Below, in pieces: positions 2,765 through 28,689 of a stretch of DNA of 64,000 nt. The notes under the pieces are model-generated. The model searched no databases and was not told where the DNA came from. It saw nothing but the letters and a program-made list of their open reading frames with translations. A program made the translations under genes and the position numbers. Source of the stretch: Nesterenkonia marinintestina (GTDB taxonomy: Bacteria; Actinomycetota; Actinomycetes; Actinomycetales; Micrococcaceae). How positions within the stretch are numbered: the stretch's first letter is position 1; each line of letters opens with the position of its first letter. Location: positions 1-64,000 of the forward strand of contig NZ_JAOEFD010000009.1 of NCBI RefSeq assembly GCF_025420485.1, read 5' to 3'.

Positions 2765-4732
2765 CTACGACCAATGCGATGACGAGCGTTGCCGCAGTGA
2801 CTCTCGGTACTGCTGCGTGGATTTCTCGAACAGCTCCCCGGTTCCCCAATCGAGGATTACTCCGTAACGCCGAAGGACGTCATGCAGAGCAATGCTACCG
2901 TCCCGATACTGCTGGGCGACCTCTTGGGGAGAGGCATCCAGCCAGGCGTGGCGTTGGCGACGGATCGACTCCCTGGTCCGTTGGGTAGCGTCCTCGTCGA
3001 CGTCGTAGTCGTCGACGTCTGGATCGTTAACGATGATGACGACACCGTAATCAAGCTCGGCGCGTTCCACGGAGACGTACTCATCGATGACGTCTTCCAG
3101 GACTTCTTCGGTGGGGCGGTCGAGGGGATCACCGAAGCCGCCGCCTCCGGCGGAGGGACGAGTGAAGGAATCGCCAGCCTTGACCTCAACGTTCGAGAAG
3201 GTCGCCCCAAGGTACCGCTCGTGGGAGGTGCCCTTGTTCAGCCACACCCCGTGCGGAACGGAAGGCAAGCCGCCGTCAACTCCCCAGGTGACGGAGCGTC
3301 CTCGGTCGCAGCAGTAGCTCATGACCGACTTGTCCACGTCGGTGAGGACGCCGCCCTTCTCCACTCCGCAACCTCCGCGATAGCGGCCCGGGCCACCGGA
3401 GTCGATGCTGATCTGGTGACGACTCGTCAGTACGGGGTTAAGGCGTTCCTGGCCTTCGACGGGCTGGACGGCCAGGCCGGTGCCGAAGACCGGAGACGTT
3501 GCTGAGGAGCCGTCCTTGGTGCGACGGCCTCCCCAGCCTCCTGCCATCCAGTCGTACCACATGAAGTAGGGGGCTTCTCGTTGGCGTTCGTCATTGCCTC
3601 CGATGAGCAGGTATTCGAGGTTGAACGCGCAGGCCATGGCCCGTTCAGGCATGATGGCGCTCCACAGCTCGAAGATCCCGTTCATGACCTTCTCATAGGG
3701 GCCGGAGCAGAACCCGGTGACGGCGTGGGGCCATCCGGCGTTGACCACTGTGCCTTCGTCGCCGATCTCTGCGGTGACGGCCCGGTAGAAGCCGGAGTTC
3801 AGCGGCACATCGGGAAAGAACGTCTTGGTGCCTGCGTAGATGGCCGAGTGGGTGGTGCCGTATCCGGAGTTCAGAAACGTGGCCACGGCGGCGGCCGAGC
3901 CGGTGAGGTCGTAGTGGATCCCTTGTCCGTCGAGAGTCAGCTTGATGCGGATGGGGACCAGACCCTCACCGACCGCTGGGTCGAAGTCAATATAATCGAC
4001 TGTTTCCCACTCGCCGTGGGGGAGACCCTCCAGACTCTTGAGCACCGTGCGTTCGACGTAGTCCTGTGTCTCCTGCATGGCCTTCACGACCGTGTCCTTC
4101 GAGTATTTGTCCACCAACCGCAGTACCTCTCGTTCGCAGACTGCGGTGGCCTCGGATTGGGCATAGAGGTCGCCCATCGCTTGGTCGGGTGCACGGGTGT
4201 TGGACACCAGCAGCTGGGCGACATCGTGGACGAAGCGGCCGTGGTGCCACACGCGGACCGGGGTGATCCTTAAGCCTTCGCTGAAGTGCGTCGTGGCGTT
4301 GACGTCGAAGGAACCGGGCACGTTGCCGCCGATGTCGGCCCAGTGGCCTTTGTTCTGGGCGAAGCCGATGATCTCGCCTTCGGAGAAGATAGGGCGGATG
4401 AAGCTCACGTCGTTAAGGTGTGTACCGCCCCGATAGGGATCGTTGACGGCGAAGACATCGCCGGGGTTGATGTCGTCCTCGAACTCCTCGATGACCGCTT
4501 TGCATTGGAAGTGCAGAGTGCCGACATGGACAGCGATATCGGCGCTTCCCTGCATGACGGTGTTGCCTTCGGCGTCACACAGTGCCGAGGAGAAGTCCCG
4601 CGAATAGATGACGAAGGAGTAGCAGGTTCGGAGGATTTGCTCGCTCATCAGATCGACGCTGGTCGCGAAAGCGTTCTTCAGGACCTCGAAAGTCACGGGG
4701 TCCAGGGTATTGTCCTGTCGCGGTGCCATCAC
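2765..4732 (-). CDS. hyuB: Hydantoinase/oxoprolinase B subunit
   Basis: This 655-residue protein belongs to the HyuB family, the partner of HyuA in ATP-dependent opening of cyclic amides and related carboxylase reactions (5-oxoprolinase, N-methylhydantoinase, caprolactamase, acetone/acetophenone carboxylase). Family features include the N-terminal DPVTFEVLKNAF, SRDFSSALCD, DIAVHVGTLHFQ, NDPYRGGTHLNDV and NKGHWADIGG, and the C-terminal RYRGGCGVEKGG and SAGGGGFGDPLDRP. The start is GTG at 4732 or ATG at 4729; either way the start overlaps the hyuA stop (GTGATG), so the two are translationally coupled. The exact substrate cannot be read from sequence. The neighbouring permease and amidohydrolase suggest an imported cyclic amide. 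Confidence 0.9.
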   Translation of the reverse strand: MMAPRQDNTLDPVTFEVLKNAFATSVDLMSEQILRTCYSFVIYSRDFSSALCDAEGNTVMQGSADIAVHVGTLHFQCKAVIEEFEDDINPGDVFAVNDPYRGGTHLNDVSFIRPIFSEGEIIGFAQNKGHWADIGGNVPGSFDVNATTHFSEGLRITPVRVWHHGRFVHDVAQLLVSNTRAPDQAMGDLYAQSEATAVCEREVLRLVDKYSKDTVVKAMQETQDYVERTVLKSLEGLPHGEWETVDYIDFDPAVGEGLVPIRIKLTLDGQGIHYDLTGSAAAVATFLNSGYGTTHSAIYAGTKTFFPDVPLNSGFYRAVTAEIGDEGTVVNAGWPHAVTGFCSGPYEKVMNGIFELWSAIMPERAMACAFNLEYLLIGGNDERQREAPYFMWYDWMAGGWGGRRTKDGSSATSPVFGTGLAVQPVEGQERLNPVLTSRHQISIDSGGPGRYRGGCGVEKGGVLTDVDKSVMSYCCDRGRSVTWGVDGGLPSVPHGVWLNKGTSHERYLGATFSNVEVKAGDSFTRPSAGGGGFGDPLDRPTEEVLEDVIDEYVSVERAELDYGVVIIVNDPDVDDYDVDEDATQRTRESIRRQRHAWLDASPQEVAQQYRDGSIALHDVLRRYGVILDWGTGELFEKSTQQYRESLRQRSSSHWS

Positions 4733-21464: not shown

Positions 21465-23087
21465 ATGGCGTCAGACCAGCACGACCCGCACCGCGACGGA
21501 CCGCGCCCTGACGGCCCGAGGTCAGAGGGGCCGAGATCAGAGGGGCCGGACCATGACGTCACCCGGCCGATGCCCGCGCGGCGTCCTGACTACGGCGGTG
21601 CCCCGACACAGCCCCCTTCGGCCCACCAGCCGCCTCGGCGACAGCCCGCGCCTCCGCAGCAGGCGCCCTTGCACCAGCCGCCCACCCAGCAGCCGGGATA
21701 TCCCGGACACCCTGGTCCTCATCCACAGTCCGGCCGTCCCTCACAGCCCGCTCAGCCCGGACACGTCCCACCGGGACACGTCCAGCCGGCCTTCGGAACA
21801 CCCGCCCCCTACTACGGCCCACCGCCCGGGCACGGCCACGATGCGGCGCCGCCCGGTCATGAGAGGCTCCGCCGTCGCGTCGGCCTCGGCGCACTCGTCG
21901 CCTGCGTGGCCGCGGCCGGACTCATCGGAGGGGGGATCGGAGCCGGCGCGGTGGGACTCATCGGCTCCGGCGACGTGGCTCCGGGCATCGAGCTGAACAA
22001 CCCGGAGAGCGCCACAGAGGTCAGCGCGGCGGCGGCCAAGGCCTCGCCGTCGGTGGTGACCCTCAGCGTGCAGGACGGAGCCGACGCCGGAAGCGGATCG
22101 GGGATCATCCTGGACGACGACGGCCACATCCTCACCAACACCCACGTCGTCACCCTCGGAGGAGCCACCGCCGACCCGGAGGTGACCGTGCAGATGAACG
22201 ACGGATCGGCGCGCACCGCCGAGGTGGTGGGCACCGACCCGCTCTCGGACCTCGCCGTGGTCCAGCTCGACGACACCTCCGACATCACCCCGGCCGAGCT
22301 GGGGGAGTCCTCCGAGCTCAACGTCGGAGACACCGCCATCGCCATCGGAGCACCGCTGGGCCTCTCCGGCACGGTCACCGACGGCATCGTCTCCACCCTG
22401 GACCGCACGATCTCCGTGGCCTCGGCCGCCGCCGAGGGACAGGGCTCGGAGGACGACGCCCCGGAGGAGCCGCCCGAGGGGGCTCCCGAGGAGCAAGGTC
22501 CGGGCGAGGAGCAAGGTCCGGGCGAGGAGGACGGCTTCGAGTTCTACTTCCCCGACCAGGGCTCCCAGCAGGCGCAGGAATCCATCTACCTCAACGTCAT
22601 CCAGACCGACGCGGCCATCAATCAGGGCAACTCCGGCGGCGCACTCGTCGACGCCGAGGGACGCGTCATCGGAGTCAACGTGGCCATCGCCTCGGCCGGC
22701 GGCACCTCCGCCGGCGAAGGGGCGGGCAACATCGGTGTCGGGTTCTCGATCCCGATCGACTATGCCCAGCGCGTCGCCGACGACCTCATCGCCGACGGCG
22801 AAGCCAGCCACGGTCTGCTCGGTGTGACCGTCGAGGCCGGCCAGGCGCAGTCGGCCGAGGAGCTGACCGCCGGAGCGCACGTGGCTGATGTCGCGGACGG
22901 CTCACCGGCCGCCGATGCCGGCATCGAGGAGGGCGACGTCATCACCGCCGTCGACGACCGCCCGGTGCACGACACGGTGTCGCTCACCGCCCTGGTGCGG
23001 GAGCACCCGGCCGGGTCCGAGGTCACCCTGACCTACCTGCGCGACGACGAGGAGCAGACCGCCGAGGTCACGCTCACCGGCATGTGA
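21465..23087 (+). CDS. HtrA/DegP-like serine protease with PDZ domain
   Basis: This 540-residue membrane-anchored protease has a disordered Pro/Gln/His-rich cytoplasmic N-terminus (about 1-135), one membrane span (VGLGALVACVAAAGLIGGG), and a trypsin-like domain with the full triad: His227 in NTHVV, Asp262 in SDLAVVQL and Ser390 in GNSGGAL. A C-terminal PDZ domain follows (LLGVTVEAG to TLTYLRDDEEQ). Between the His/Asp half and the Ser half lies an acidic insert of about 40 residues with a duplicated EEQGPGE unit. It should degrade or hold damaged extracytoplasmic proteins. It is divergent from the TPM-like gene. Confidence 0.92.
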   Translation: MASDQHDPHRDGPRPDGPRSEGPRSEGPDHDVTRPMPARRPDYGGAPTQPPSAHQPPRRQPAPPQQAPLHQPPTQQPGYPGHPGPHPQSGRPSQPAQPGHVPPGHVQPAFGTPAPYYGPPPGHGHDAAPPGHERLRRRVGLGALVACVAAAGLIGGGIGAGAVGLIGSGDVAPGIELNNPESATEVSAAAAKASPSVVTLSVQDGADAGSGSGIILDDDGHILTNTHVVTLGGATADPEVTVQMNDGSARTAEVVGTDPLSDLAVVQLDDTSDITPAELGESSELNVGDTAIAIGAPLGLSGTVTDGIVSTLDRTISVASAAAEGQGSEDDAPEEPPEGAPEEQGPGEEQGPGEEDGFEFYFPDQGSQQAQESIYLNVIQTDAAINQGNSGGALVDAEGRVIGVNVAIASAGGTSAGEGAGNIGVGFSIPIDYAQRVADDLIADGEASHGLLGVTVEAGQAQSAEELTAGAHVADVADGSPAADAGIEEGDVITAVDDRPVHDTVSLTALVREHPAGSEVTLTYLRDDEEQTAEVTLTGM

Positions 23088-23141: not shown

Positions 23142-23951
23142 ATGGACACGCTGCGACACCTCACCCCAGATGAGCTCCTCTCCGGGCTCGGCGTCCGCCG
23201 AGTGCTGGCCTTCGCCGCCCACCCCGACGACCTCGACTTCGGTGCGGCCGCCACCATGGCGGCCCTGGCCGAACGGGGTGCGGAGATCACCCTGTGCCTG
23301 CTCACCGCCGGCGACGCCGGGGGCTTCTCTCCCGACGAGGACAGGGAGGGGGTCCCGGCCCGGCGCGCCGCCGAGCAGCGGGAGGCCGCCGAGCTGCTCG
23401 GCATCCCCGAGGTGGTCCTGCTGGACGAGCGGGACGGGTTCGTCGAACCCACCCATGACCTGATCCGCAGCATCGTCCGACTGATGCGCCGGTGCCGCCC
23501 CGATGTGGTCGTCTCCACCCACCCCGAACGGGCCTGGGAGCGGCTGCAGAAGGCGCATCCCGATCACCTCGCCTGCGGAGAGGCTGTGGTCCGGGCGTGC
23601 TATCCGGCGGTCGAGAACCCCTTCGCCTACCCCGAGCTGCTCTCGGAGGAGGGACTCGAGGCCTACCGGGTCCCGCACCTGCTGCTGATGACGGCCCCGC
23701 AGGAGCGGCACAACACCTGGGTCTCGGTGGCCGGGTACGAGAGCACGAAGGTCGACGCCCTGCGGCGGCACCTCAGCCAGCACCCCGATCCGGGGCAGAT
23801 GGAGCGCTTCGTCCTGGAGCAGATGCGCGCCTCGGCCGCCGACGCGGACCGCCGCGGGGCACAGCGGTCTCCGCACGTCCCCGACGACGCTCCCGCCGAA
23901 GCGTTCCACCTGGTCACCGTCAACGGGCAGGGGACGTTCGCCGGGTTCTGA
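23142..23951 (+). CDS. PIG-L/LmbE-family N-deacetylase
   Basis: This 269-residue zinc-dependent deacetylase family protein has the family motif AAHPDDLDFG near residues 26-35 (His and Asp metal ligands) and HPDHLACGEAV later, which supplies a further His. Relatives remove acetyl groups from GlcNAc-type sugars; MshB and Mca act in mycothiol metabolism. The sequence is not specific enough to name MshB or Mca. ATG 23142 has a TAGTGT hexamer nine bases upstream and no strong ribosome binding site. Confidence 0.85.
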   Translation: MDTLRHLTPDELLSGLGVRRVLAFAAHPDDLDFGAAATMAALAERGAEITLCLLTAGDAGGFSPDEDREGVPARRAAEQREAAELLGIPEVVLLDERDGFVEPTHDLIRSIVRLMRRCRPDVVVSTHPERAWERLQKAHPDHLACGEAVVRACYPAVENPFAYPELLSEEGLEAYRVPHLLLMTAPQERHNTWVSVAGYESTKVDALRRHLSQHPDPGQMERFVLEQMRASAADADRRGAQRSPHVPDDAPAEAFHLVTVNGQGTFAGF

Positions 23952-23963: not shown

Positions 23964-25703
23964 TCAGCCGCCGGTCGGACCGCCGTAGGTGGGTCCGGAG
24001 GAGGCCTCCGTGCTCAGCGGGATCTCGACGACCACCTCGCCCGTGGGACGCTCCGCCCCGGCGATCTCCTCGGCCGTCACCGAGAGCCTGTCGTAGGTCC
24101 CGATGCCGCGCAGCTCCACAGTCTCCTCGCTCAGCTCCTCGGCGGAGAAGCTGCCCAGGGAGCTCGGCTGGCCCTCTCCGTCGGGGAGCAGCCAGACCTG
24201 GTACGTCATGCCGTCGACCGGCGCCACCTCGTCGAACTCGGCGTAGCCGAGGTCCTCCTCCTCGGAGACCACCAGCTGCGCGGTGCCGCCCTCGGCCATC
24301 TCGACCTCGTCCGAGGAGGCCACGTCATCGGCCTCGTCCACCCGCTCCTGGACGTCCTGGCCGATGGTGAGCCGCCAGATCATCACCGCGGCGAGCACGA
24401 CCACCACGATCAGCCCTGTGACCACCATCCACCGCTTGACCACCGGCTGCCGCTTCGGCCCCTCCTCGGTGTGGGTGGAGACCTCCTCGACCATCGTCAT
24501 CCCGACCTCCTGGTCGGAGAGGTCGAGCATCATCTCCTCGAGCAGGTGTCGCGGCGGGTCCACCGGGTGCGAGGTGAAGATCTCGGCCAGGGTGCGGCGG
24601 GCCGCCAGCACACGGGTGTCCCAGCGCTGGGCCACGGATTCGGAGGCGTTGAGGGCCTCCTCGTCGAGCAGGGAGCGCTCGCGGTCGTCGACGGCGTCCA
24701 TCGCGTAGACCTCGGAGAGCTCCACGAGCAGCTCACGCCGCAGGTCGGTGTCGATGCGGTCGGAGAAGTTGCGGTTCACTCCGGCGCCCCGCTCCAGGTC
24801 CCGACGGGTCACTGCGGCACGCAGGATGGGGTCGTCCACATCGACCCGCCCCGAACGGACGGTGTGCAGGCGGGTCATGGCATCGCGCAGCCGGGACTTC
24901 ACCGCGGGCAGCGCCGAGTTCACCTGGGCGGCCGCCTCGTGGTGGTTCATGCCGCTGAGGTAGCACAGCGCCAGCACCTGGATCTGCGAATCCGAGAGCG
25001 GGGCGAAGTCCTCGAGCACCTCTTCGGGCAGACCGGCGACGCCGCCGGAGTCCACGACGGTGAGTTCGATGGGCCGGACCGCACCCTCGCGGAACCGCTC
25101 GACCATGATCCGGTGGGCCAGCGGGATCAGCCACTCCAGGACGAGCTCGTGCTCCTCGGGGCGGTAGGCCGGCTCGTCGGAATCGGGCCCCTCCTCCTGG
25201 GCGGCCACGTGGTCGGCCAGGGACTCCGCCGCGGCCGACTGCAGCCGCAGGTCGCGGGCCCGCTCGTCGGCCTGGTCCCACAGGTGGTGGTAGACGGCGA
25301 CCATGGCCGTCTGCGCGCCGTCGACGTCCTCGTGCATCAGCAGCGCCAGCCCGTAGACGACGTCGGCGGTGGCCTCGTAGAACTGGGCGAAGGCGGCCTG
25401 GTCGCCGCGCGCGGTGCGGGTCAGCAGGCGTGCCAGCGTGGGCTGGGAGTCTTCGGCCGACTCGGTGGCCGACTCGGTGGCCGACTCGGTGGCAGGCTGC
25501 GGAGCCGGGCCGTCGGGCGCCTGGTCCGGGGCCTCGTCCGGTGCCTCGTCCGGTGTCTCATCCTGCGTGCCGACCGGGGCTTCGTCGGTCGTGCCGGCCG
25601 CGCCGTCGCCCGCCTGCTCGGTGCCGTCGGTCGTCGGACTGCCCCCGTCGAGGTCCTCGGGGCGTGCGGCATCGTCGTCAGGGCGCGGGGAAGCGTCGGT
25701 CAT
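23964..25703 (-). CDS. ECF sigma-like / RskA-type anti-sigma fusion protein
   Basis: The protein has 579 residues. After a disordered Asp/Glu/Pro head (about 1-85, with repeated DEAP and SATE units), LARLLTRTARGDQAAFAQFY resembles sigma region 2 of SigK-like ECF factors. LSDSQIQVLALCYLSGM followed by SALPAVKSRLRDAMTRL resembles region 4. LLVELSEVYAMDAVDDRER matches the N-terminal part of RskA-type anti-sigma factors but has no zinc-binding His-Cys set. A membrane span (WMVVTGLIVVVVLAAVMIW) and an extracytoplasmic RskA domain (GMTYQVWLLPDGEG...ERPTGEVVVEI) follow. Sigma region 2.4 is poorly conserved, so promoter binding is not certain. TAAGCT at 25711-25716 suggests a leaderless start. Confidence 0.75.
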   Translation of the reverse strand: MTDASPRPDDDAARPEDLDGGSPTTDGTEQAGDGAAGTTDEAPVGTQDETPDEAPDEAPDQAPDGPAPQPATESATESATESAEDSQPTLARLLTRTARGDQAAFAQFYEATADVVYGLALLMHEDVDGAQTAMVAVYHHLWDQADERARDLRLQSAAAESLADHVAAQEEGPDSDEPAYRPEEHELVLEWLIPLAHRIMVERFREGAVRPIELTVVDSGGVAGLPEEVLEDFAPLSDSQIQVLALCYLSGMNHHEAAAQVNSALPAVKSRLRDAMTRLHTVRSGRVDVDDPILRAAVTRRDLERGAGVNRNFSDRIDTDLRRELLVELSEVYAMDAVDDRERSLLDEEALNASESVAQRWDTRVLAARRTLAEIFTSHPVDPPRHLLEEMMLDLSDQEVGMTMVEEVSTHTEEGPKRQPVVKRWMVVTGLIVVVVLAAVMIWRLTIGQDVQERVDEADDVASSDEVEMAEGGTAQLVVSEEEDLGYAEFDEVAPVDGMTYQVWLLPDGEGQPSSLGSFSAEELSEETVELRGIGTYDRLSVTAEEIAGAERPTGEVVVEIPLSTEASSGPTYGGPTGG

Positions 25704-25775: not shown

Positions 25776-26249
25776 TCAGACCGCTCCGGGGAACCCCTGA
25801 CGGCGCCACGCATCGTAGACCACCACGGAGACGGCGTTGGCCAGGTTCAGCGACCGGCGGGAGGGCAGCATCGGGATGCGCACCCGCGCGGCGACGCGCG
25901 GATCCTCCAGGACGTGCTCGTCCAGGCCGATCGACTCCCGTCCGAAGAGCAGCACGTCGCCCTCGCGGTGCTCGACGTCGGTGTACGCGGACTCGCCGCC
26001 GCCGGTGTAGGCGAGGACCCTCTGCGGCCGCAGCACCCGGTAGGCCTCGTCCAGGCTCGGGTGCACCGTGAGGACGGCGAGGTCATGGTAGTCGAGCCCG
26101 GCGCGGCGCAGCTTGGCGTCGTCGAAGTCGAATCCCACAGGCTCGGCCAGGTGCAGCTCCATCCCGGTGACGGCCGCGAGACGGATCAGGTTCCCCGTGT
26201 TGCCGGGGATCTCGGGCTGGTCGACGAGGACGCGCAGGGGAGCAGGCAC
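25776..26249 (-). CDS. trmL: tRNA (cytidine/uridine-34 2'-O)-methyltransferase
   Basis: This 157-residue minimal SPOUT methyltransferase is of the TrmL type, which 2'-O-methylates the wobble base of tRNA-Leu isoacceptors. Family motifs are PEIPGNTGNLIRLA near the start, LLFGRESIGLDEHVL (motif 2) and IPMLPSRRSLNLANAVSVVVYDAWRR (motif 3, with the knot). The length is that of the stand-alone family without a separate RNA-binding domain. It lies in a minus-strand run with the J-domain gene upstream. Confidence 0.9.
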   Translation of the reverse strand: MPAPLRVLVDQPEIPGNTGNLIRLAAVTGMELHLAEPVGFDFDDAKLRRAGLDYHDLAVLTVHPSLDEAYRVLRPQRVLAYTGGGESAYTDVEHREGDVLLFGRESIGLDEHVLEDPRVAARVRIPMLPSRRSLNLANAVSVVVYDAWRRQGFPGAV

Positions 26250-26286: not shown

Positions 26287-27366
26287 TCAGGCGTCGTCGG
26301 GCCGGACCAGCTGATCACGCAGGGCGGCCAGCAGATGCCGATCGATGTGGTTGGCCCGCTCCGAGGCCGCCAGCGCGGCGACCACGGACTTCGCCGCACG
26401 CGCGGTCGCCTGAGGGGTGGCCGTCCCGGACCCGAGGGTCTCCACCACAGGGCTCATCGGACTGCCGTCGGGGGAGACCAGGAAGACCTGACCATGGATC
26501 GACAGCGCCACCTCCCGGCCGGCCTCGGCGAGTCGACGGGTCAGCGTCGCCCGCAGGGTCCTGGCCTGGTCGACGACGTCGGGAACTGTCATCGCCCGCC
26601 CGGCGGCCCGCAGGGTGCGGCCGTCCCATGAGGCCGTCGCGGCGGGGACCTCGACGACGGCGGCGACCACGATCGCATCGCCGCACACCAGGACGAGCTC
26701 CGCACGCGGAGCCGACCGTGAGACCCGGGGCCGACCCCGTCGGTCGACCTCCGGTGCGGCCAGCGAGACGTCGTGGAACAGGCGGGCGGCGGGCAGCTCG
26801 CTCAGGACCAGCCGGTCGACCATCTCCACCGACCGCTGCGCCCGACGGGACGGCCCGCCCGAGAACAGGCCGCCCAGCCCGGCGGGGGAGAGGTCTCCGT
26901 GGACGCGCTGGCTGGTCAGGGTCAGCGACAGCGGCTCCGGCTCGGAGAGGTCCGGCACGTACACCGGAGGCAGATGGGCGGCGCCGCTTGGCCGGTGGCC
27001 GCCGGTGCGCTCGGCGCCCGCCGAGGAGCCGCGGGTGCCGGCGGTGAAGGTGCCGCGGCCGTAGCCGCCCCAGCCGGTGCGGTCGTCCTCATCGTCGTCC
27101 CCGCCGCCGCCGGCCGAACGTCGTCGCAGCGACCGGTCGTAGGCGCTGCGGGACTCGTCGTCGCCGAGGACCTCGAAGGCATGACGCACCCTCTGGAACT
27201 GGGCGGCGGAACCGCCCCGGTCGGGATGGGAGTCCCGGACGCGGCGGCGGTAGGCGCGGCGGATCTGCTGGAGGTCCGCTTCGGCCGGCACGCCGAGCAC
27301 GCTGTAGAGGTCGGCCTCGGGGCCGTCGTCGGCACGGCCGGAGGATCCGGGAGGCTGTGTGTCCAT
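26287..27366 (-). CDS. J-domain (DnaJ-like) protein
   Basis: The 359-residue protein has a J domain near residues 18-80 (DLYSVLGVPAEADLQQIRRAY) with the essential HPD in RDSHPDRGG; this stimulates an Hsp70 partner. There is no zinc-finger or usual DnaJ C-terminal domain. After a Gly/Arg-rich linker comes a domain that includes ERVGGHRPSG-like basic sequence and LVLVCGDAIVVAAVVEVPAA, not recognised. It may be a specialised co-chaperone. ATG 27366 is chosen because MDTQPPG precedes the J domain directly and TATCCT lies nine bases upstream. It is divergent from the cysteine desulfurase gene. Confidence 0.8.
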   Translation of the reverse strand: MDTQPPGSSGRADDGPEADLYSVLGVPAEADLQQIRRAYRRRVRDSHPDRGGSAAQFQRVRHAFEVLGDDESRSAYDRSLRRRSAGGGGDDDEDDRTGWGGYGRGTFTAGTRGSSAGAERTGGHRPSGAAHLPPVYVPDLSEPEPLSLTLTSQRVHGDLSPAGLGGLFSGGPSRRAQRSVEMVDRLVLSELPAARLFHDVSLAAPEVDRRGRPRVSRSAPRAELVLVCGDAIVVAAVVEVPAATASWDGRTLRAAGRAMTVPDVVDQARTLRATLTRRLAEAGREVALSIHGQVFLVSPDGSPMSPVVETLGSGTATPQATARAAKSVVAALAASERANHIDRHLLAALRDQLVRPDDA

Positions 27367-27375
27367 CGACCGTCC

Positions 27376-27381
27376 AGGATA
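27376..27381 (-). promoter_or_regulatory. -10 element of the J-domain gene
   Basis: TATCCT on the minus strand ends nine bases before ATG 27366, which would give a leader of only a few bases. Confidence 0.4.
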
Positions 27382-27430
27382 TCGCTTCGCGAGGGCGGCC
27401 CGAGCACCTCGGGCGCCTCGCGGACGCCGG

Positions 27431-27436
27431 TAGGAT
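27431..27436 (+). promoter_or_regulatory. -10 element of the cysteine desulfurase gene
   Basis: TAGGAT ends eight bases before ATG 27445. It lies back to back with the promoter of the divergent J-domain gene. Confidence 0.4.
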
Positions 27437-27444
27437 CGTCGGTG

Positions 27445-28689
27445 ATGGAGACCATGCCGAGTCCGACCGGCGGCGGAGCGGACGAGCAGCCGCGCTACTT
27501 CGACCATGCCGCGACCTCCCCCGCACGTCCGACGGCCGTGCGGGTGCTCACCGAGGCGATGGCGCTGTCGAACCCCTCAGCCCTGCACGCCGCCGGACGC
27601 AGGGCCCGCGCCGCCGTCGACGCCTCCCGGGCGCAGCTGGCCGCCGCCGTCGGCGCGCACCCCTCCGAGGTGATCTTCACCTCCGGCGGCACCGAGGCCG
27701 ACAACCAGGCCGTCAAAGGTCTCTACTGGACACGCCGCGGCCAGGACGATCGGCGTCGCACCATCCTGCTGCCGGGGATCGAGCACTCCGCGGTGTTCGA
27801 GACCGCCGAATGGCTCGAGACCCACCAGGGCGCCGAGGTCCGGCTGCTGCCCGTGGACGGGGAGGGTCGGCTCGACCTCGACGCGGCGGAGGCTCTGATG
27901 GTCGATCTGCTCTCCGAGGATCCGGAGTCGGTGGCCCTGGCCACCCTCATGTGGGCCAACAGCGAGGTCGGAGCGCTGCAGCCGGTGGCCGAGTTCGTGC
28001 GCCTCTGCGCCCGATGGTCCGTGCCCGTCCACACCGACGCCGTCCAGGGCATGACCTCCACCGCTGTGGACTTCGCCGCCTGCGGGGCGGCCACCATGGC
28101 GATCACCGCCCATAAGCTGGGCGGCCCGGTCGGCGTCGGCGCGCTGCTCGTCCGCAGAGACGTGGCCCTGACCCCGGTCCTCCACGGCGGCGGCCAGGAG
28201 CGCGACATCCGCTCCGGCACCCTCGACGTCGCCGGGATCTGCGCGTTCGCCGCCGTGGCCGAGGAGGTCGTCGCCGCACGGGAGGACGAGGCCCGTCGGC
28301 TGGGCGCACTGCGGGACCGACTGCTCGAGGCCGCGGTCGGGATCCCCGGAGTCACCCTGCGCGGCCCCGACCCGCGCACCGCCCCGGAGCGGCGACTGCC
28401 GCAGAACCTGCACATCACCGTCGACGGCGCCGAGGGGGACTCGCTGCTCTTCATGCTGGACATGGCCGGCTTCGCCACCGCCACAGGCTCCGCCTGCTCG
28501 GCCGGGGTGCCGCGCCCCTCACGGGTGCTGCTGGCGATGGGCCTGACGGAGGAGCAGGCCCGCGGCGCTCAGCGCTTCACAGTGGGACACACGACCACCG
28601 AGGACGACGTCGACGCGCTCATCGCGGCGCTGCCCGACGTCGTCGCCCGTGCCCGCACCGCCGGGATGGCCGCCTCCCGCAGCCGCTGA
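27445..28689 (+). CDS. Cysteine desulfurase (IscS/NifS-like)
   Basis: This 414-residue PLP enzyme takes sulfur from cysteine for iron-sulfur clusters and thiolated tRNA. It has the class V aminotransferase layout: YFDHAATSPARP at the N-terminus, FTSGGTEADNQAVKG, the PLP Lys224 in TAHKLGGP and the active-site Cys351 in GSACSAGVPRPS. The nearby mnmA needs exactly this kind of sulfur donor. ATG 27445 lies just after a -10 element; ATG 27454, with GGAG closer, is an alternative. The reading frame is open far upstream, but that part is the antisense of the J-domain gene. Confidence 0.93.
   Translation: METMPSPTGGGADEQPRYFDHAATSPARPTAVRVLTEAMALSNPSALHAAGRRARAAVDASRAQLAAAVGAHPSEVIFTSGGTEADNQAVKGLYWTRRGQDDRRRTILLPGIEHSAVFETAEWLETHQGAEVRLLPVDGEGRLDLDAAEALMVDLLSEDPESVALATLMWANSEVGALQPVAEFVRLCARWSVPVHTDAVQGMTSTAVDFAACGAATMAITAHKLGGPVGVGALLVRRDVALTPVLHGGGQERDIRSGTLDVAGICAFAAVAEEVVAAREDEARRLGALRDRLLEAAVGIPGVTLRGPDPRTAPERRLPQNLHITVDGAEGDSLLFMLDMAGFATATGSACSAGVPRPSRVLLAMGLTEEQARGAQRFTVGHTTTEDDVDALIAALPDVVARARTAGMAASRSR

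Follow-up and report, generated by a model that had tools for sequence, protein, structure and literature searches.

Fusions of a sigma factor with an anti-sigma factor are usually regarded as tethered sigma factors awaiting release. A gene of Nesterenkonia marinintestina raises the question whether this holds for a SigK-type sigma part joined to an RskA-type anti-sigma part, or whether the sigma half, having lost much of the sigma machinery, may now do a different job. The gene lies in the window, i.e. the whole stretch of 64,000 nucleotides that was analysed (contig NZ_JAOEFD010000009.1, positions 1 to 64,000), and occupies positions 23964 to 25703 of the minus strand, where one frame is unbroken for 579 amino acids plus stop. 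One and the same locus offers two-gene relatives, near-fusions with a single stop between the genes and several post-fusion stages, so that one can test directly what becomes of a sigma factor unable to leave its inhibitor.

Domain architecture of the fusion protein

The gene, delimited by translation of the open reading frame and by its orthologs, had originally been predicted to encode an ECF sigma-like and an RskA-type part in one polypeptide. Pfam, NCBIfam and phmmer against the M. tuberculosis SigK-RskA structure 4nqw agree on this assignment. A phmmer search of the PDB aligns SigK (4nqw_A) with residues 89-147 and 189-280 (E = 6e-12) and RskA (4nqw_B) with residues 326-390 (E = 1.4e-5), while the SigK model of NCBIfam is matched with E = 8e-22 but, at 77.9 bits, far under its cut-off of 226. 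All parts of the fusion lie on the minus strand. Sigma region 2, placed by the SigK match and by alignments at residues 88-207 (25083-25442), is degraded in region 2.2 and partly so in regions 2.3-2.4, and no Pfam sigma region 2 model matches the window protein up to E = 10; together with the SigK alignment this means that the similarity of region 2 is real but weak. Region 4 (residues 233-283; 24855-25007), placed by Pfam, phmmer and alignments, contains the genus-conserved motif KSRLRD, and Sigma70_r4 matches residues 236-279 with E = 6e-5 and 22.9 bits, just under the cut-off of 24.1. The domain searches thus do find sigma similarity within residues 85-300.

Two acidic segments accompany the sigma domains. 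The N-terminal tail (residues 1-84; 25452-25703) is of low complexity and little conserved by alignment and dN/dS; with dN/dS values of 0.17-1.87 across 13 pairs of orthologs it evolves fast, and it contains short acidic repeats (TES, DEAP). An acidic insertion separates region 2.2 from region 2.4 (residues 149-186; 25146-25259); it is confined to Nesterenkonia and Garicola rows in the one alignment of fused and two-gene rows from which it was identified.

The fusion point is marked by a linker, defined by alignments, with a DP-x-x-x-x-x-VT motif (residues 284-322; 24738-24854). It leads into the anti-sigma domain (residues 323-395; 24519-24737; Pfam, phmmer and cysteine count), in which RskA_N is matched over its Pfam cut-off at residues 326-373 (E = 7e-7). 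A membrane span follows at about residues 425-446 (24366-24431), read from the sequence and coinciding with model helix 340-364, which corresponds to residues 423-447. The RskA_C match (residues 432-557; 24033-24410; Pfam E = 9e-15, over cut-off) covers part of the span and the extracytoplasmic domain. Hence the RskA-type layout is complete, with RskA_N and RskA_C over their Pfam cut-offs and a span between. The only cysteine of the whole fusion is at position 247 in sigma region 4, so that the anti-sigma part has none and its description as zinc-less is correct; Pfam, cysteine count and sequence together bear out the predicted order of zinc-less anti-sigma region, membrane span and RskA domain.

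Distribution and genomic neighbourhood

A search of 58 genomes retrieved the fusion from its own genome and from 29 of 29 other Nesterenkonia genomes. Outside the genus it was found in G030, over most of its length, and in G032, where the match consists of two pieces within a single frame. All 32 genomes have an open frame that spans most of the fusion; among these loci L029 is without a start, L021 contains unknown bases and L032, from a genome that is 62% complete, has a deviating C-terminus. The sigma and anti-sigma parts likewise share one open reading frame in each of 29 named loci, comprising 23 of Nesterenkonia (one Candidatus, one uncultured), one of Garicola, three of Citricoccus and two labelled Micrococcus (one of them M. 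terreus). The fusion is therefore a conserved single gene in the genus, and an assembly join, which the original prediction had allowed for in case orthologs were always encoded as two genes, is ruled out by these 29/29 genomes and 29/29 named loci.

A survey of the family covered 295 genomes. Among the matches listed, 50 genomes show a single near full-length one, and they fall into 6 of 32 genera (g1, g2, g4, g35, g37 and g42), again among the matches listed; g35 adds two imperfect matches. The fusion is thus present in five more genera beyond Nesterenkonia, and the locus is the same in every case in which its neighbours were examined. A single open frame is seen in 15 fetched loci of other genera (L034, L035, L101-L107 and L109-L114), and TrmL-like and PIG-L genes flank each of these and also the broken locus L108. 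The bacteria with the fusion are Nesterenkonia and its relatives from soil and salt habitats. Two of the g35 loci deviate: in L107 (2790-4043) the fused protein of genome G184 stops right past the membrane span, and a match to RskA_C was found nowhere in that genome; in L108 (2735-4267) an in-frame stop lies within the sigma part of genome G230 (91% complete, 6% contaminated), perhaps an assembly matter since there are unknown bases near by.

In the window, four neighbour families were confirmed by Pfam. Upstream of the fusion lies a gene for a SpoU-type RNA methylase (25776-26249, minus strand), the TrmL-like neighbour, with 72 bp between it and the ATG of the fusion, followed by a DnaJ-domain gene (26287-27507, minus strand). 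On the other side lie a convergent PIG-L de-N-acetylase gene (23142-23951, plus strand) and an HtrA-like trypsin/PDZ protease gene (21465-23087, plus strand). PIG-L, HtrA-like and TrmL-like genes are found near the fusion in 29/29 named loci and the DnaJ gene in 28, and in some of these loci 0.5 to 3 kb separate the fusion from PIG-L. The constant HtrA-like neighbour may be a site-1 protease or a case of mere synteny.

Two-gene relatives and origin of the fusion

In the genera g52 and g46, separate sigK and rskA genes lie in this order between TrmL-like and PIG-L in five of five fetched loci; for two of these the fetched stretch also includes HtrA. The g31 locus L119 and three g5 loci also have two genes, these neighbours being absent from the fetched stretch. 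In L118 the sigK stop immediately precedes the rskA start; a class I methyltransferase gene (L118, 1456-2250) lies there between trmL and sigK, while the fusion in the window adjoins trmL. In the g52 locus L115, the sequence shows sigK and rskA sharing one frame, separated by no more than one TGA (3283-3285), and by its coordinates L116 has the same layout (3181-3183). These two loci are one stop codon short of a fusion.

In a tree of 36 RskA parts, rooted with four paralogous RskA, three of which have long branches (two of these meeting), 23 fused rows make up one clade (100/99) and nine two-gene rows another (81/73). An unrooted RskA tree separates the same 23 fused from the nine two-gene rows by one branch (100/100), and a TrmL tree, computed with no outgroup, likewise separates 24 from five rows (92/84); the trees without outgroup could not show one fusion, because a midpoint root splits the fused rows. 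The DP and VT residues of the linker are present in 37 of 44 fused rows, the seven exceptions all belonging to g35. None of 13 two-gene sigma rows has them, nor does any of 13 RskA rows that are two-gene or outgroup. Given the fused clade in the rooted tree, a single fusion event is the simplest reading of these sequences.

Decay of the sigma half

Region 2.2 of a sigma factor serves core polymerase binding, and regions 2.3-2.4 serve recognition and melting of the -10 element. As reference for these regions we used 13 two-gene sigma factors, five syntenic and eight others (three of the eight share a genome, and two belong to the genome that contains the window); those at the locus are canonical. 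The percentages below compare 22 fused rows, seven of them Nesterenkonia-type, with four ordinary sigma controls that belong to the 13, while residue and charge counts refer to 44 fused rows (29 Nesterenkonia-type and 15 other).

Of the conserved positions in regions 2.3-2.4, 14-43% are kept in the fused genera versus 86-100% in the controls, and of those in region 4.2, 59-77% (43% in g35, where this region is eroded as well) versus 69-100%. The region 2.2 Gln is found in 2/44 fused rows and 13/13 two-gene rows, and the region 2.4 Arg at reference position 141 in 0/44 and 13/13, respectively. The net charge of regions 2.3-2.4 ranges from -9 to 0 in 44/44 fused rows versus +1 to +5 in 13/13 two-gene rows. 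A salt-adapted, acidic proteome is unlikely to be the sole cause, since both ordinary SigK paralogs that this genome encodes carry charges of +3 and +2 in this stretch. Part of the sigma machinery is nevertheless retained in the Nesterenkonia-type rows: 29/29 have a Trp, a His and two Arg in region 2.4 and the Lys, Arg and Arg in region 4.2, and 25/29 have another region 2.4 Arg. Doubt about a poorly conserved region 2.4 had thus been well placed in the original prediction, but in Nesterenkonia this region is only partly lost, and region 2.2 is affected as well.

The Pfam scan of six fused proteins is in line with these counts. Sigma70_r2 reaches E = 8e-17 in the two-gene L118 and is over cut-off in 0/6 fused proteins (L035 comes to 0.018); sigma region 4 is over cut-off in 2/6 (L034 and L035), with no Pfam region 4 match in the g35 protein L101; and RskA_C is over cut-off in 6/6. 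RskA_N exceeds its cut-off in one of the six, that of the window, compared with 68 bits in L118, and is below cut-off or absent in 5/5 fused proteins from other genera. Outside Nesterenkonia the anti-sigma domain has therefore diverged too, and a kept anti-sigma lock can be claimed for Nesterenkonia only. Judged by the residues that define regions 2.2 and 2.3-2.4 and by the positive charge, the sigma half has decayed since the fusion, and its sigma activity would have been lost with them.

Selection on the two halves

For 13 independent Nesterenkonia-type pairs drawn from 27 rows (L021, L029 and L032 being left out), dN/dS is 0-0.33 in sigma regions 2.1, 2.2-2.4 and 4; for the anti-sigma domain the range is 0-0.34. 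Purifying selection in Nesterenkonia is strong on both halves. Compared with region 2.2-2.4, dN of the anti-sigma domain is lower in nine pairs, higher in three and equal in one. In each of four two-gene pairs sigma is better conserved than its partner, with sigma/anti-sigma identities of 0.90/0.68, 0.88/0.55, 0.75/0.51 and 0.99/0.96, these controls being few and sharing loci (L118 is in three of the four, and the last pair are near-copies). Seven fused pairs from other genera, likewise few and with loci in common, show no clear sigma excess (sigma 0.66-0.88 versus anti-sigma 0.65-0.88). Sigma dN/dS is 0.04-0.06 in two-gene relatives, 0.30-0.51 in g35 (three pairs) and 0.30 in g4; at 0.05-0.09, close to the two-gene relatives but with dS near saturation, g42 is by this measure an exception to the weakened constraint. 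Together, dN/dS and pair identities indicate that the protein is kept by selection while the excess constraint on sigma has weakened.

Structural model

AlphaFold2 predicts the cytoplasmic half with a pTM of 0.85, one of the five models being poor (pLDDT 56.3). Over both sigma domains the model superimposes on 4nqw_A, i.e. SigK held by RskA, with an rmsd of 2.8 (144 residues), versus 25.0 (138 residues) on the polymerase-bound 6jbq_F. The sigma domains are thus predicted in the anti-sigma-bound pose, a placement that may echo 4nqw from the training of the program, and the anti-sigma domain would dock between them.

RskA_C paralogs

Besides the fusion, the genome of N. marinintestina encodes two ordinary SigK/RskA pairs. 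The fusion is the sole RskA_C protein found in 9/30 genomes of the genus (6/26 of those at least 90% complete) and in 15/22 fused genomes of other genera; in 21 of the latter 22 RskA_C is over cut-off, the exception being G184 with none. Three RskA_C proteins occur in the genome that corresponds by coordinates to Nesterenkonia sp. Act20 (G028/L048), for which the accessible part of PMC8965627 reports an RskA in the proteome that drops under UV and returns afterwards; it may be the fusion or one of the two other RskA_C proteins.

Proposed function

We put at about 0.5 the probability that the fusion arose from an ordinary sigK-rskA operon of two genes at this very locus and that its product is a membrane-tethered, self-locked pseudo-sigma switch. 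The cytoplasmic half would be a SigK:RskA-like complex made in cis, in which sigma folds against the anti-sigma domain, and the single membrane span would anchor the chain to the RskA_C domain outside. The sigma half would have ceased, since the fusion, to be a complete sigma factor; in Nesterenkonia strong constraint persists on region 4 and on the anti-sigma domain. A signal at RskA_C might alter how region 4 docks on the anti-sigma domain, perhaps once the chain has been cleaved within the membrane, and we infer for this switch an output via region 4 or another partner and not via promoter opening by a sigma holoenzyme. As a tentative extension, the pair may after a single fusion have become a new receptor class, in which the anti-sigma domain has a dead sigma in the same chain as its ligand and signals pass without a holoenzyme, with successive stages of this process surviving in living genera of one family.

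Several observations count against a pseudo-sigma switch: the sigma half of Nesterenkonia is under purifying selection as in a working part, sigma dN/dS in g42 is close to that of two-gene relatives, Nesterenkonia retains region 2.4 and 4.2 residues, and outside this genus the anti-sigma domain decays too. The selection and the retained residues in Nesterenkonia fit the main rival for this genus, a functional sigma factor that stays tethered to its anti-sigma domain until regulated intramembrane proteolysis frees it, as in IutY and as proposed for ECF48, ECF52 and ECF53, which we consider possible but doubtful. The IutY-type precedent (accessible part of PMC8999054), the retained region 4 and part of region 2.4 and the HtrA-like gene in 29/29 named loci also speak for such a release. 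Matches to M50 peptidases in the genome, one of them strong (E = 2.6e-40), point the same way, but they occur in 14/14 control genomes as well, so that their presence shows little. A released sigma factor is, on the other hand, disfavoured by the loss of the region 2.2 Gln/Glu and of the charge of regions 2.3-2.4, by Pfam region 2 over cut-off in none of the six fused proteins and by the seven fused pairs that lack a clear sigma-specific excess of conservation.

A PhyR-like decoy, also considered in the original prediction, would have the pseudo-sigma occupy either the anti-sigma domain of its own chain or, in trans, another RskA and thereby free or buffer real SigK paralogs. Sigma mimicry by PhyR is established, two ordinary SigK/RskA pairs are at hand in the same genome and the sigma domains are modelled in the anti-sigma-bound arrangement; no other RskA_C was found, however, in 6 of the 26 Nesterenkonia genomes with a completeness of at least 90% and in 15/22 fused genomes of other genera, so that a role in trans is not general, and we judge the decoy unlikely. 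As a decoy for an RskA paralog in particular it is unlikely to be a general explanation, the fusion being the sole RskA_C protein found in those genomes. Equally improbable is a decaying relic, i.e. a system inactivated by the fusion of which the envelope part alone, or nothing, is still used. The state of g35, with 43% of region 4.2 kept, sigma dN/dS of 0.30-0.51, one genome without RskA_C after the span and one with an in-frame sigma stop, would suit it, as would RskA_N below cut-off or absent in 5/5 fused proteins of other genera. Against it stand the long open frame in 29/29 other genomes of the genus, the low dN/dS there and RskA_C over cut-off in 21/22 fused genomes of other genera.

Comparison with known systems

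One of the known systems closest to the proposed pseudo-sigma switch is SigK-RskA of M. tuberculosis (ECF19 with AS19; 4nqw). Both halves are related to it in sequence, the anti-sigma part is zinc-less, RskA_C lies outside and the two sigma domains are placed alike in the model. In contrast, the window protein is one polypeptide and not a sigma gene beside rskA, its regions 2.2 and 2.3-2.4 are degraded, and it has a single Cys whereas a redox pair is reported for SigK (accessible part of PMC7509140). According to the same source, RskA acts on SigK as inhibitor and as activator, and in M. tuberculosis it is cleaved by Rip1. ECF sigma factors contact anti-sigma domains through regions 2.2 and 4.1-4.2, as stated in the accessible part of PMC7406223, so that loss of region 2.2 may affect polymerase and anti-sigma binding alike.

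The likeness to the sigma-like domain of PhyR, a sigma fold that serves anti-sigma binding, is an analogy only.

The layout of sigma, anti-sigma domain and span in one chain is that of IutY and ECF52. In IutY (ECF243, Pseudomonas putida) a membrane anti-sigma factor is likewise fused to the C-terminal end of sigma; unlike the window protein, it belongs to another ECF group with another signal, aerobactin in cell-surface signalling. In this characterised fusion cleavage by Prc and RseP yields active sigma, and ECF48, ECF52 and ECF53 are expected to act in the same way (accessible part of PMC8999054). These three groups, including SCO4117 (ECF52), similarly combine an actinobacterial sigma with a C-terminal anti-sigma-like region and one or more spans, but are described there with zinc-finger and other outer domains rather than RskA. 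Our literature searches, which did not reach the 2021 ECF re-classification paper, found no described SigK-RskA fusion. In conclusion, sigma/anti-sigma fusions are already known, and what is new is this lineage and its decay.
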